Assembly (NCBI RefSeq): GCF_001870675.1
Contig: NZ_MEHT01000009.1
Span: forward strand, 124,001-188,000
Direction of reading: 5' to 3'
DNA: 64,000 nucleotides
Source of the DNA: Roseinatronobacter thiooxidans
GTDB taxonomy: Bacteria > Pseudomonadota > Alphaproteobacteria > Rhodobacterales > Rhodobacteraceae
The notes beneath the pieces are model-generated. The model ran no database searches, was not told the origin of the DNA, and was given only the letters and a program-made list of their open reading frames with translations. A program made the translations under genes and the position numbers. Of this stretch, positions 10,848 to 38,441 are shown piece by piece; positions within the stretch are counted from its first letter, which is position 1; each line of letters opens with the position of its first letter.

Positions 10848-11813
10848 ATGAAACCCTTGATCATGACCTGTGGCGATCCCTCCGGGATAGGCCCCGAGAT
10901 CGCGCTGAAGGCGCATCGCGCGCTGGGGGCGCGAGGGGGAGTCATCTGGCTGGGGGACCCGGAGCATTTGCCTGACGGGGCACGCTGGGAGGTGATTTCA
11001 ACACCGCAAGAGGCGGGGCGCGTTGCGCAGGGCCATTTGCCGGTGATGCGCCATGCCTTTCCCGCGCCCGCAATTGCCGGCTTGCCCGACCCGTTGAATG
11101 CAAGCGCCGTGATCGAGGTGATCGCGCGGGCGGTGGCCCTGGTGCAATCGGGTGCGGCAGCGGGTGTTGTGACCTGCCCGATCAACAAGGCCGCGCTGAA
11201 ATCGGGGGCGGGGTTTGCCTTTCCCGGCCATACCGAGTTTCTGGCCGATCTGGCAGGGGTAGACCGCGTTGTCATGATGCTGGCCTGTGACGCCTTGCGG
11301 GTTGTGCCTGTGACGATACATATGCCGCTGCAGGATGTGGCGCGCAGTCTGACACAGCCCTTGCTGGAAGAGACTTTGCGCATCACCCATGCCGCCCTGA
11401 TCCGTGATTTCGGCATTGCCGCGCCGCGACTGGCCGTGGCGGGGCTGAACCCCCATGCAGGCGAAGGCGGGCTGATGGGGCATGAGGACGCCACAGTCAT
11501 TGCGCCTGTTCTGGACCGTTTGCGGGCCGAGGGCATGGCCCTGTCCGGCCCCTTGCCTGCGGATACGATGTTTCATCCCGCAGCACGGGCGCGCTATGAT
11601 GCGGCGATCTGCATGTATCATGATCAGGCATTGATCCCGATCAAGACGATTGATTTTGCCCATGGGGTGAATGTGACGCTGGGCCTGCCTTTTATCCGCA
11701 CATCGCCCGATCATGGCACGGCCTATGATATTGCAGGCAAGGGGGTGGCGGATGCGTCCTCTCTGATAGCGGCAGTGAAGATGGCGCAGGATATGGCGGG
11801 GCGGCGGCAATGA
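10848..11813 (+). CDS. pdxA: 4-hydroxythreonine-4-phosphate dehydrogenase
   Basis: PdxA oxidises 4-phosphohydroxy-L-threonine with NAD in the DXP-dependent pyridoxal 5'-phosphate pathway. Family marks are [12 protein letters not shown] at the N-terminus, GHTEFLADL, the NPHAGEGG loop and [13 protein letters not shown], whose His and Asp help bind the divalent metal. The product is 321 residues. The frame is open back to 10692 through the repeat; ATG at 10848 is the usual family N-terminus, while ATG at 10827 is formed by the end of the repeat core. The stop overlaps rsmA by four bases, the common pdxA-rsmA arrangement. Confidence 0.95.
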
Positions 11814-12652
11814 TCGACACCCTGCCCCCGCTGCGCGACGTGATCCGCGATCACGACCTGCGCGCAAAGAAAAGTTTTGGGCAGAATTTCCTGCTGGATC
11901 TGAACCTGACAGCACGGATTGCGCGCGCGGCGGGAGATTTGTCTGGCGCGGATGTGCTGGAGGTTGGCCCCGGTCCAGGCGGATTGACCCGCGGTTTGCT
12001 GGCCGAAGGCGCGCGGCGCGTGCTGGCGATTGAAAAAGATGCGCGCTGCATGGCCCCTCTGGCGGAAATCGCGGCCGCCTATCCGGGCAGGCTGCTGGTG
12101 ATCGAGGGGGATGCGCTGGAGGTGGACGCGCTGGCGCATCTGACCCCGCCCGTCAAGATAGTGTCGAACCTGCCCTATAATGTGGGAACAGAACTTCTGA
12201 TCCGCTGGATGACGCCCAAGGACTGGCCCCCGTTCTGGGACAGCCTGACGCTGATGTTCCAGCGCGAAGTGGCCGAGCGTATTGTCGCGCGTCCGGGCAG
12301 CAAGGCCTATGGGCGCTTGGCGCTGATGGTGCAATGGCGCGCGGATGCGCGCATTGTCCTGACCCTGCCGCCCGAAGCCTTTACGCCCGCGCCCAAAGTC
12401 AGCTCTGCGGTTGTGCATATCACGCGATTGGCAGAGCCTCGCTTCCCTGCCAAAGCGGCGATATTGGAGCGCGTTGTTGCTGCCGGTTTCAACCAGCGCC
12501 GAAAAATGCTGCGCGCGGCATTGCGCGGGCTGCACCCCCGGATTGAAGAGCTGCTGGTCGCCGCAGGCATTCCCCCCACTGCGCGCGCCGAGGAAATCGG
12601 GCTGGAAGCCTGGTGCCACCTGGCGCGGTTGCTGGAGGGGCGCGCGGTCTGA
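11810..12652 (+). CDS. rsmA: 16S rRNA (A1518/A1519-N6)-dimethyltransferase
   Basis: RsmA (KsgA) dimethylates two adjacent adenosines in the 3' hairpin of 16S rRNA during late 30S assembly. The SAM site is [10 protein letters not shown] after the [11 protein letters not shown] signature, and the catalytic motif SNLPYNVG is in the middle of the protein. The C-terminal helical domain completes 280 residues. The ATGA overlap with pdxA indicates translational coupling. A strong hairpin 30 bp downstream is better oriented as the terminator of a minus-strand RNA, but could also slow transcription leaving rsmA. Confidence 0.96.
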
Positions 12653-12676
12653 CGCCATCCGGATGTGCTGGCCATG

Positions 12677-12706
12677 AAAAAGCCACCTCGGGCGTCCCGA
12701 GGTGGC
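12677..12706 (-). terminator. Rho-independent terminator (minus strand)
   Basis: GCCACCTCGGG at 12682-12692 and CCCGAGGTGGC at 12696-12706 form a perfect 11-bp stem with a three-base loop. On the minus strand the hairpin is followed by five T residues (12681-12677). There is no T-run on the plus side, so it was not built to end rsmA transcription. Confidence 0.85.
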
Positions 12707-12779
12707 ACAGTCGGTACCCGCATCGGCGGTACAGGGAGGAAAATCTGCTCAAGCCCGGATAAATTTGGCTTGAAAAGAT
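12677..12779 (-). ncRNA. Candidate FNR-dependent small RNA, about 100 nt
   Basis: No protein-coding gene explains the terminator at 12677-12706. A minus-strand transcript beginning near 12779 would be about 103 nt. Stem 1 pairs TCAAGCC (12773-12767) with GGCTTGA (12755-12749). An unpaired stretch TTTTCCTCCC (12743-12734) follows, complementary to Shine-Dalgarno sequences. Stem 2 pairs GTACCGC (12732-12726) with GCGGGTAC (12721-12714) with one bulge. The terminator hairpin and U-tract complete it. The layout matches Hfq-type trans-acting sRNAs. Precedents for oxygen-regulated sRNAs are FnrS of E. coli and PcrZ of Rhodobacter; homology to either is not established. Confidence 0.6.
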
Positions 12780-12786
12780 GATTCAA

Positions 12787-12792
12787 ATTAAA
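12787..12792 (-). promoter_or_regulatory. Candidate -10 element of the sRNA promoter
   Basis: On the minus strand TTTAAT matches TATAAT at five of six positions. It lies between the FNR box and the proposed 5' end near 12779, at the distance expected for a class II FNR-activated promoter. Confidence 0.5.
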
Positions 12793-12812
12793 ATGATTTC
12801 GATCACGCGTCC

Positions 12813-12826
12813 TTGATCTGGATCAA
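12813..12826. promoter_or_regulatory. Perfect FNR/FnrL-binding site
   Basis: TTGATCTGGATCAA is an exact match to the FNR consensus TTGAT-N4-ATCAA. Its centre (12819.5) is about 40.5 bp upstream of the proposed sRNA start at 12779 on the minus strand. It could also influence the plus-strand gene at 13032, whose ATG is 212 bp away. Confidence 0.75.
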
Positions 12827-13031
12827 AAATCCATCCTTCCTGTAGAGTTTTTGACAATCCCGCCAGACAGATGGCATTGCAGCCGATACGGAAACGCCCA
12901 AGGCCCCAAAGGCGACATCTTGGTGAAAGATGCTTAATTTGAATGCGTGCTGTGCTTGTCAGAAGATAAGACTTGGTTAGGGTGTTGTCACTGTTCGGAC
13001 CGGAACCTTTTTTCGACAAGGCTGGCAGGGA

Positions 13032-13967
13032 ATGAAGCAATATTTTGAAGAAATAGATTTGGCAACTGCGGGAACAGAGGCCGAATGGCTGGCACGGCTG
13101 GATGAAATCGGCGATGAGGTGGGCGCGTTTACCCCGCTGGGTGCCGAACATGCCGCGTTCTTTCTGGATGGAAATGACACGCTGCTGGTCTGTTTCGAGA
13201 GTGTCGAGAGCATCCGCGCGGATTTTCCGTCGCAGCGCCCGCGCGCGGTCCAGATTGCCTTGCGCCACGGGTGGTCTTGCCTTGTGATCCTTGCCCGCAA
13301 GGCGCGGTTTTACCGCGATTGCGAGGTGCTGGATTTCTTCGATGCACAGATCGATGAAAGCTTTTTCGACAGTTTCCGCCGCGTGCTGTTTTTCGGCGCG
13401 GGGCCGCATGGCTATGCCGCCTGCACTTTCAGCCTTGCCGCACCGGGCGCGACTGTTCTTGCAATCGGCCCGCAGGCAACACTTGACCCTGAAATCGCAC
13501 CTTGGGAGCCGCGCTTTCGCAGCCAGCGCAGCCTTGATTTCCGCAGCCGGTTCGGCTTTGCGCCTGCCATGCTGGACGGTGCGCGCACGGCCTTTATTGT
13601 CTATGATCCAAGCGTCCCGCTGGATGCGATGCATGCAACCCTGTTCCGCCGCCCCAGTGTCACCATGCTCAGAACGCCCGCGCTGGGCCATGATACCGCC
13701 GCCGCGCTGGACCGGATGGGGGTGCTGAACACCCTGATCGAGGCCGCAATGCGTGGCAGGCTGTCTGCCCCGCGCTTTGCCGATATGATGCGCCAGCGCC
13801 GCAAGGATGCTGTGTATTTGAAAGACCTGCTCAAGCGGGTCGCGCGGACAGACCACCCGATGCTGGCCATGATCGCCGCGCAGCACGCCCATGCCTTGGT
13901 CAAGGACAATGCCGATCTTATGGAGGCAGACCTGGCCGCGGATGATCTGCCGGACCAAACGCTATAA
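13032..13967 (+). CDS. Unrecognised protein with alpha/beta-hydrolase-like core
   Basis: This 311-residue cytoplasmic-looking protein has no signal peptide or membrane span. The middle contains VLFFGAGPHGYAACTFSLA followed by ATVLAIGPQATLDP, resembling the nucleophile elbow and following strand of alpha/beta-hydrolases. The expected serine is missing (GxGPHGY instead of GxSxGG), so catalysis by a Ser triad is doubtful. Similar Rhodobacterales proteins are, from memory, sometimes labelled phosphoadenosine phosphosulfate reductase, a label I would not trust without a search. GGCAGGGA precedes ATG. It lies downstream of the FNR-box region and upstream of pyrC. Confidence 0.6.
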   Translation: MKQYFEEIDLATAGTEAEWLARLDEIGDEVGAFTPLGAEHAAFFLDGNDTLLVCFESVESIRADFPSQRPRAVQIALRHGWSCLVILARKARFYRDCEVLDFFDAQIDESFFDSFRRVLFFGAGPHGYAACTFSLAAPGATVLAIGPQATLDPEIAPWEPRFRSQRSLDFRSRFGFAPAMLDGARTAFIVYDPSVPLDAMHATLFRRPSVTMLRTPALGHDTAAALDRMGVLNTLIEAAMRGRLSAPRFADMMRQRRKDAVYLKDLLKRVARTDHPMLAMIAAQHAHALVKDNADLMEADLAADDLPDQTL

Positions 13968-37656: not shown

Positions 37657-38441
37657 GTTCGCTCCTCGATGCCGTTTATCTTGTTATATGCGTGTATCAC
37701 GCGAAGGCCATGCAGTGTCAGATCATCCTCGACCCTGTCAAACAGGTTCTCGGCCTGCGCAAATAGCGGCGCCAGCCCGCCTGTTCCGACAACTGTCATC
37801 GGTTTACCATACTCTGCCTTGATCCGGCCTGTTATGCCCTCGATCAGTCCGATATAACCCCAGAACACACCAGATTGGATGCATTCGACAGTATTGGTGC
37901 CAATCACCTTGTCGGGGCGCGAAATATCGACATGCGGCAGGGCTGCGGCCCCCTGATGCAGCGCCTCTAGGCTAAGGTTCACACCCGGTGCGATCACCCC
38001 GCCCACATAGGCGCCGTCATGGGCGACCACATCGAAATTCGTGGCCGTGCCGAAATCCACCACCACCACATCGCCGCCAAACCGTTCATACGCCCCTGCC
38101 GCATTTGCCAGCCGGTCAGGGCCGGGCCTGACCCCTTCATCCACGCGCGGGGCAACAGGCAGCAGGCATTCGGGCTTGCCCACAACCAGCGGGCGGCAGT
38201 TGAAATAGCGGTCGCACAGCACCCGCAGATTGAACACCACACGCGGCACGGTTGAGGCGATAACGACATCGCTGATGTCCAGCTCGACCCCCTTGATGCG
38301 CATCAAGGTGGACAGCCATACGAAATACTGGTCCGCCGTGCGCATATGCTCGGTCGAGGTGCGCCATGTCGCCAGTACCTGCGTGCCATCCCAGACCGAA
38401 AACACTGTGTTGGTGTTGCCGCAATCTATTGTCAGAAGCAT
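37653..38441 (-). CDS. coaX: Type III pantothenate kinase
   Basis: CoaX phosphorylates pantothenate, the first step of coenzyme A synthesis, and unlike CoaA is not feedback-inhibited by CoA. The 262-residue ASKHA-fold protein shows the phosphate-1 motif IDCGNTNTVFSVW at the N-terminus, the VVVDFGTATNFDVV motif with the catalytic Asp, and APGVNLSLEAL. It lies between birA and rnj with tight junctions, an arrangement often seen downstream of nuoN in this order. Confidence 0.95.
   Translation of the reverse strand: MLLTIDCGNTNTVFSVWDGTQVLATWRTSTEHMRTADQYFVWLSTLMRIKGVELDISDVVIASTVPRVVFNLRVLCDRYFNCRPLVVGKPECLLPVAPRVDEGVRPGPDRLANAAGAYERFGGDVVVVDFGTATNFDVVAHDGAYVGGVIAPGVNLSLEALHQGAAALPHVDISRPDKVIGTNTVECIQSGVFWGYIGLIEGITGRIKAEYGKPMTVVGTGGLAPLFAQAENLFDRVEDDLTLHGLRVIHAYNKINGIEERT

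Follow-up and report, generated by a model that had tools for sequence, protein, structure and literature searches.

What is an FNR-type box doing in a 379-bp gap between rsmA and a gene of unassigned family? Does it serve the gene on its far side or something encoded in the gap itself, which protein would read it, and what would be switched on? In the ORF list of the window, the whole 64-kb stretch of a Rhodobacteraceae genome that was analysed (G000:C43:124001-188000), the gap spans positions 12653-13031. It is bordered by rsmA (11810-12652, plus strand) and by orf311 (13032-13967, plus strand), which encodes a 311-amino-acid protein. A preliminary description of this DNA had joined a perfect FNR box, a TTTAAT element, an unpaired segment and a terminator into an oxygen-controlled small RNA (sRNA), and the gap and all four elements are found at the coordinates given below. 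This observation is confirmed and the core of its interpretation is supported: the minus strand probably carries a stand-alone sRNA gene, convergent with rsmA at its 3′ side and divergent from orf311, which would be activated by FnrL when oxygen is absent and would block Shine-Dalgarno (SD) sequences through an exposed seed.

The palindromic half-sites of the box TTGATCCAGATCAA lie at 12813-12826 on the minus strand, where the sequence TTGATCTGGATCAA has zero mismatches to TTGAT-N4-ATCAA. From the box to the conserved 5′ end of the RNA there are 32 nt, the centre of the box is at about -40 from the predicted start, and a -10-like element, TTTAAT, follows it at 12787-12792 (minus strand). The transcription start is predicted at 12778-12780 (minus strand), in a conserved (C)AT(G/C)TTT block, from the spacing to the -10 element and from class II FNR geometry. 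Initiation at the C, A or T of CAT would put the centre of the box at about -39.5 to -41.5, so that relative to this predicted start the box is centred near -41.5 and the -10 element has a fixed spacing, the class II arrangement. By itself, the box is not beyond chance expectation in the window: TTGAT-N4-ATCAA occurs there at three sites, all exact, and shuffled windows contain a mean of 1.51 sites when one mismatch is allowed, with at least three sites in 22 of 100 shuffles. It is the unit that goes beyond chance, because box, spacing, seed and stems are conserved throughout the genus. The other two exact sites in the window are at 11631-11644, inside pdxA, and at 38293-38306. The whole genome (3.5 Mb) has 18 TTGAT-N4-ATCAA sites and none for a reversed control pattern. 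Four exact-box loci elsewhere in the genome were read by eye; three flank ccoG/ccoP, ccoN and fnrL-hemN, and around the box of the fourth (L004) no FNR-type gene was recognised. FNR controls the cco genes and genes of the fnrL-hemN type in related bacteria.

The RNA predicted downstream of this promoter is about 104 nt long (12677-12780, minus strand), on the evidence of its fold and of covariance-model matches. From 12780 to 12677 it folds at -44.2 kcal/mol (z -4.06, with none of 200 shuffles as good; z -4.77 in a second run) into, successively, a 5′ hairpin, a free UUUUCCUCCC segment, a second hairpin and a terminator, all on the minus strand. The 5′ hairpin (stem 1) is predicted at 12743-12779, and TTTTCCTCCC reads at 12743-12734. 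The single-stranded 10-mer UUUCCUCCCU (12733-12742), with an unpaired probability of 0.90, is the predicted seed, or anti-SD segment, on the basis of fold and conservation. Stem 2 (12714-12732) separates this 10-mer from a GACU motif (12709-12712), common to SorX-like siblings. The Rho-independent terminator occupies 12677-12706 and consists of an 11-bp stem (12706-12682) and a U tract, encoded by five T at 12681-12677.

Is this arrangement found in relatives? An exact motif scan of 80 rsmA loci located the unit in three of them (L007, L009 and L010) and not in L005, L006 and L008, which are near in rsmA identity as well. For the 3′ core, a covariance model (R1) trained on three sequences (the window, L009 and L010) scored L007, outside its training set, at 57.3 bits. 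Over 194 genomes it matched 25 of the 37 genomes of the genus with E-values of 1.3e-7 or better, a count that takes in the three training genomes. A second covariance model (R2), trained on all 25 copies, recovers the same 25 at 7.5e-14 or better, the next match following after a gap at 1.1e-6. Neither model matched the remaining 12 genus genomes, five of which are less than 90% complete. In the orf311 tree (30 rows, 22 of them carriers), at least five changes of presence are required and the midpoint root has carriers on either side; in our reading, the scattered presence reflects several losses of an ancestral gene, gains being the alternative.

UCCUCCCUGU-N-CCG is present in all 25 copies, UUCCUCCCUGU in 24 and the full 10-mer in 18, and by a loose pattern [G/A]ACU follows 10-22 nt past CCUCCCUGU in 22 of the 25, as it does in the sibling loci. 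The anti-SD segment is predicted to be mostly exposed: the 9-nt segment ending in CCUCCCU has a mean unpaired probability of 0.85 over the 25 copies, with at least 0.7 in 20 of them and a minimum of 0.48, the less exposed copies (0.48-0.70) being L085, L086, L088, L108 and, just below 0.7, L090. In most copies the fold prediction gives a stem-1-like hairpin that joins the start to the segment preceding the anti-SD; in L085, L088, L099 and L106 it is weak or absent. Folded singly, the 25 copies have a mean z of -3.8. In an alignment of the 25 copies (24 distinct), 96.4% of the cells in the two 3′ helices are paired versus 83.3% in shuffles, 44 cells are changed on both sides versus 10.7, and the covariation score is 0.415 versus 0.145 in shuffles and 0.03-0.09 for slid structures; the R1 structure guided this alignment, which is hence biased towards it. 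Compensatory changes were also detected in 7 of 14 pairs by RNAalifold on an unfitted MAFFT alignment. The terminator stem has 98.6% of its cells paired and double-sided changes in six of its nine modelled pairs; the corresponding figures for stem 2 are 92.5% and two of five. The recurrence of box, stems and terminator, by which the preliminary description proposed to judge itself, has thus been observed, with the RNA in 25 of 37 genomes, a phased box in 23 of 25 copies and covarying stems.

Upstream of the RNA, the FNR-type box is exact in 18 of the 25 copies and has one mismatch in five, the best-scoring site of each upstream region being used, which entails a slight bias. No good box precedes the RNA in L096 (G019) and L099 (G021), two copies that the orf311 tree places together with that of the window. 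The distance from the box to the conserved 5′ end is 31-34 nt (n = 23, sd 0.6). Among the 18 copies with a spacing of 32, the ten fixed positions of the box carry 1.7-2.0 bits each and 23 of 25 columns upstream of it carry no more than 0.23 bit, so that information is confined to islands: the box, the AT-rich -10 region, in which one A is invariant in 18 of 18, and the CATGTTT start block, in which A and T are likewise invariant. The class II geometry first proposed for the window alone fits the spacing in these 23 copies and the conserved -10 island in the 18, reckoned from the predicted start.

Which protein would read the box? The window's genome encodes FnrL, which the NCBIfam model for this protein scores at 450 bits (cut-off 300), and FnrL is present in all 37 genus genomes. 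It also encodes a second FnrL-like protein of the CRP/FNR family (G000:C3:24150-24833, plus strand), whose 281.9 bits fall below the same cut-off and which lends some weight to another reading: the RNA exists but is regulated mainly by a different CRP/FNR protein, CrpK-like or this second FnrL-like one, and its signal is not simply oxygen through FnrL. We consider this unlikely, as a second FnrL match at E-values up to 1e-60 was obtained in G000 alone among the 37 genomes whereas FnrL occurs in every one of them, and the same box consensus is found at ccoN, ccoG/ccoP and fnrL-hemN (recognised by eye).

Does the box belong to the RNA at all? FNR-type sites between divergent genes can act on either side, and this box is such a site, with 205 nt between it and the start of orf311 in the window; it might therefore serve orf311, with the RNA-like sequence downstream being incidental. 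orf311 is itself conserved in the genus, and its product has no Pfam match (E up to 0.1) and no NCBIfam match (E up to 1e-5). However, whereas the spacing from the box to the RNA is fixed, the distance from the box to the orf311 start ranges from 182 to 259 nt (n = 20, sd 24.8). All 25 RNAs are divergent, 22 from orf311 and three from pyrC; in the latter three carriers orf311 was not found in the locus, but box and RNA are retained. On the other side, tblastn matched rsmA within the 1.5-kb flank in 16 of the 25 carrier loci. Conversely, in the 8 of 12 non-carriers covered by the junction check (L252-L258 and L263), which have an orf311 start with upstream sequence, there is neither a box nor TCCTCCC. 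Seed and stems, moreover, are conserved in their own right. Since the RNA spacing is fixed, the orf311 distance varies and non-carriers keep orf311 without the box, the box is assigned to the RNA and not to orf311, and a box that serves orf311 is quite improbable.

It is very improbable that the structure is a mere rsmA terminator or an antisense RNA to the 3′ end of rsmA. The terminator stem does lie about 30 nt beyond the rsmA stop codon on the opposite strand, but the rsmA strand has no T run after the stem, and conservation extends well past a terminator, to promoter, seed and 5′ block. In addition, in L007 (L094 is the same place) an ORF intervenes between rsmA and the RNA, which still adjoins orf311. 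Least credible of all is a leaderless small protein encoded from the conserved 5′ ATGTTT: of the 18 copies with a spacing of 32, 17 have an ATG after the predicted start, but the window has ATC at this place and L099 has ATT, and the loop length and frame of stem 1 vary freely.

How, then, would the FnrL-activated sRNA gene work? With falling oxygen, FnrL carrying a [4Fe-4S] cluster would bind the box, whose centre is about 40 bp before the start, and, in class II geometry, activate a σ70-type promoter, on which expression of the RNA would then depend. The transcript of about 104 nt would end at the intrinsic terminator and expose UUUUCCUCCCUGU between two hairpins. This segment could pair with SD sequences of the GGGAGGA type, probably with the involvement of Hfq, and so block translation of mRNAs not needed without oxygen. 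Translational block is the likeliest action because an exposed CCUCCC can pair with GGGAGG SDs, and the RNA probably silences its target mRNAs by covering ribosome-binding sites when oxygen runs out. For NfeR1, reporter tests are described as indicating translational block (PMC10746234). The promoter-sRNA unit defined by the comparative data is compact and conserved and has one clear seed, which makes oxygen control by an anti-SD sRNA directly testable in a relative that can be cultured.

Candidate targets were sought through the seed. In the window's genome, CAGGGAGG followed by a start codon gives 17 matches, and the same pattern written backwards gives seven; those at plausible ORFs include solute-binding proteins (TRAP, sugar and xylose), a CO-dehydrogenase-type flavoprotein, an acyl-CoA dehydrogenase, a DsbA-like protein, a DUF2189 protein and an ABM protein. 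Across the genus, ACAGGGAGGA with ATG gives 84 matches; of the 30 read, some of which are sRNA loci on the other strand, 18 have an ORF of at least 60 amino acids and 7 of these 18 ORFs encode transport components. One of the 18, L187, was scanned as L151, which is the same gene. The control SD sequence ACAAGGAGGA gives 49 matches, and among the 30 read there are 27 ORFs, 17 of them for solute-binding proteins (Pfam), a set that is not independent as eight of the 17 are ZnuA and four look like one sugar-binding orthologue. A transporter target set was dropped, 7 of 18 being no stronger than 17 of 27 in the control. The bias towards transporters goes with strong SDs generally, and so the seed-based prediction suggested in the preliminary description yields nothing specific against the control set and no target is claimed.

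Nor does a role particular to phototrophs, which had also been suggested, agree with the distribution of the RNA: reaction-centre genes are present in 18 of 25 carriers and in 8 of 12 non-carriers; at E 1e-30 none is seen in G033, a carrier with a listed completeness of 100%. A specific link to photosynthesis was rejected, as the RNA does not track reaction-centre genes.

Has such an RNA been described? No report of it was found in searches of open-licence PMC papers, and the Rfam check that had been proposed gave no family at gathering score in the RNA region (12640-12840). On the strand of the RNA, the highest-scoring of the weak matches are anti-hemB (15.7 bits, cut-off 49.5) and, at 13.7 bits (cut-off 40), ar15, which belongs with suhB/MmgR to one Rfam clan and whose alignment covers the UUUUCCUCCC segment. 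The suhB family (RF00519, cut-off 41 bits) is not listed on 12640-12840 at E-values up to 10, where its clan mate ar15, at 13.7 bits, could mask only a weaker suhB match. The window RNA is also not among the 16 suhB matches in its own genome; these reach 32.5, 28.4 and 22.9 bits, all below the cut-off, and at E-values up to 5 all 14 control genomes match too.

The closest resemblance is to αR8 RNAs (MmgR, RF00519; SisA-D), which are described as ending in a terminator and carrying, after a weak hairpin, an internal UUUCCUCCCU that is single-stranded (PMC12559287). Hairpin, single-stranded UUUCCUCCCU and Rho-independent terminator are all present in the window RNA, and here too there appear to be several siblings per genome under unrelated promoters, as described for the Caulobacter siblings SisA-D (PMC12559287). 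However, the window RNA has an extra hairpin between the 10-mer and the terminator as well as an FNR-type promoter, just 18 of the 25 window-type copies have the full 10-mer, and the window RNA comes nowhere near the RF00519 cut-off. The usual single αR8 copy adjoins an N-formylglutamate amidohydrolase gene, in contrast to rsmA and orf311 or pyrC here; the extra αR8 copies of Caulobacter are described as also lying away from that gene (PMC12559287). SorX (RF02784, RSs2461) is likewise similar in having CCUCCCUGU and GACU before the terminator, as judged from the SorX-scoring relative L137. There is no SorX match on the window RNA at the gathering cut-off of 46.6, and the model does work in the genus (L137, 57.5 bits). 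SorX is described as being cut from the 3′ UTR of an mRNA (PMC6238624) and as depending on RpoHI/RpoHII, RSs2461 and SorX being the same RNA (PMC5036791). In this it differs from the window RNA. By eye, another locus of the window's genome, L208, looks like SorX. There is a precedent for FNR-type wiring in R. sphaeroides, where ChIP-seq located FnrL in the putative promoters of both RSs0019 and RSs2461 but could not establish what FnrL does to either RNA (PMC4263372). The window RNA is best called an αR8/SorX-like variant and not a member; its seed may come by descent from αR8 or by convergence.

The preliminary description had invoked FnrS and PcrZ as precedents, but the architecture is closer to αR8/SorX. 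FnrS of E. coli is described as a base-pairing sRNA directly activated by FNR that lowers mRNAs unneeded without oxygen (PMC8139620); the likeness lies in this proposed logic of an FNR-activated sRNA, and the FnrS family is absent from the Rfam matches on the RNA region. PcrZ of Rhodobacter sphaeroides, a related bacterium, is likewise an sRNA of low-oxygen conditions, and its induction requires FnrL. By description, it differs in its length, 136 nt (PMC6238624), and in its PrrA site, with an FnrL effect that may be indirect and with repression of photosynthesis genes (PMC8139620), whereas the window RNA does not track reaction-centre genes. NfeR1/αr14 and CcsR resemble the window RNA in having anti-SD segments that block ribosome binding. 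The CcsR ('cuckoo') RNAs carry the same motif as αr14. In αr14, each of three hairpins is described as having CCUCCUCCC in its unpaired region (PMC10746234), unlike the window RNA, which has a single CCUCCC in a linker. The mechanism itself is not new, and the finding is an incremental but solid addition, which suggests that the αR8 sibling design known from Caulobacter may extend to oxygen sensing.

How far does the RNA reach beyond the genus? Over 194 genomes, R1 gave 13 weak non-genus matches (E 0.003-0.083), and the four checked (L110 and L112-L114) have neither an exact box nor TTCCTCCCTGT. R2, searched over 394 genomes of the family, reaches 39 genomes outside the genus (E 4e-7 to 0.009). 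Of 18 such loci looked at, L119 is truncated by its contig end, and none of the other 17 has a site with at least 9 of 10 box bases within 180 nt upstream. A pattern of box plus TTCCTCCC matched four non-genus genomes among the 394, with no GACU and terminator behind the motif by eye. Thus, no counterpart beyond the genus was recognised from sequence among the genomes sampled and matches inspected. A Tropicibacter record (L019) has an exact TTGAT-N4-ATCAA 44 bases past the rsmA stop codon, without the anti-SD motif.

R2 also matches other loci within the genus, 26 of which were read by eye. Nineteen of these, in 19 genomes, combine UUCCUCCCUGUC...(G/A)ACUGGC-like sequence with a terminator, lack stem 2 and mostly follow a block resembling GGAAAG...TTWACC; four others look SorX-like. 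It is conceivable, though doubtful, that the genus has a set of αR8/SorX-like sRNAs sharing one SD-blocking seed (UUCCUCCCUGU...GACU) under different promoters: the FNR-type box, the GGAAAG...TTWACC-like block (at least 19 of 37 genomes, by eye) and the SorX-like copies. If so, signals of oxygen, stress and growth would share one pool of target mRNAs, and the hairpin found in the FNR-type copy alone would set that RNA apart, for example by shielding it from sponge RNAs or changing its handling by Hfq.

The window's genome has a second SorX/αR8-like locus outside the window (G000:C43:300881-300952, plus strand; L210/L134), with TTCCTCCCTGTC...ACTGGC-like sequence and a terminator. It is apparently a sibling sRNA with its own promoter, and relatives of it are L136, L138, L139, L188, L189, L191-L196, L198-L202, L204 and L205. 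In the sibling sample, the Rfam SorX model gives 57.5 bits for L137 and 27-34 bits for L134, L136, L138 and L139 (cut-off 46.6). L137 (G019:C186) has an extra CCTCCCTCCTCCCC stretch about 30-45 bases before TTCCTCCCTGT, possibly a double anti-SD. In another genus, L123 scores 40.3 bits with suhB, just below 41, and looks αR8-type without an FNR box. Two suhB-like candidates lie in the window's genome, L208 (G000:C34:137213-137289, plus strand; 32.5 bits) and L209 (G000:C26:3217-3295, plus strand; 28.4 bits), of which L209 appears directly after a stop codon, like a 3′-UTR RNA.
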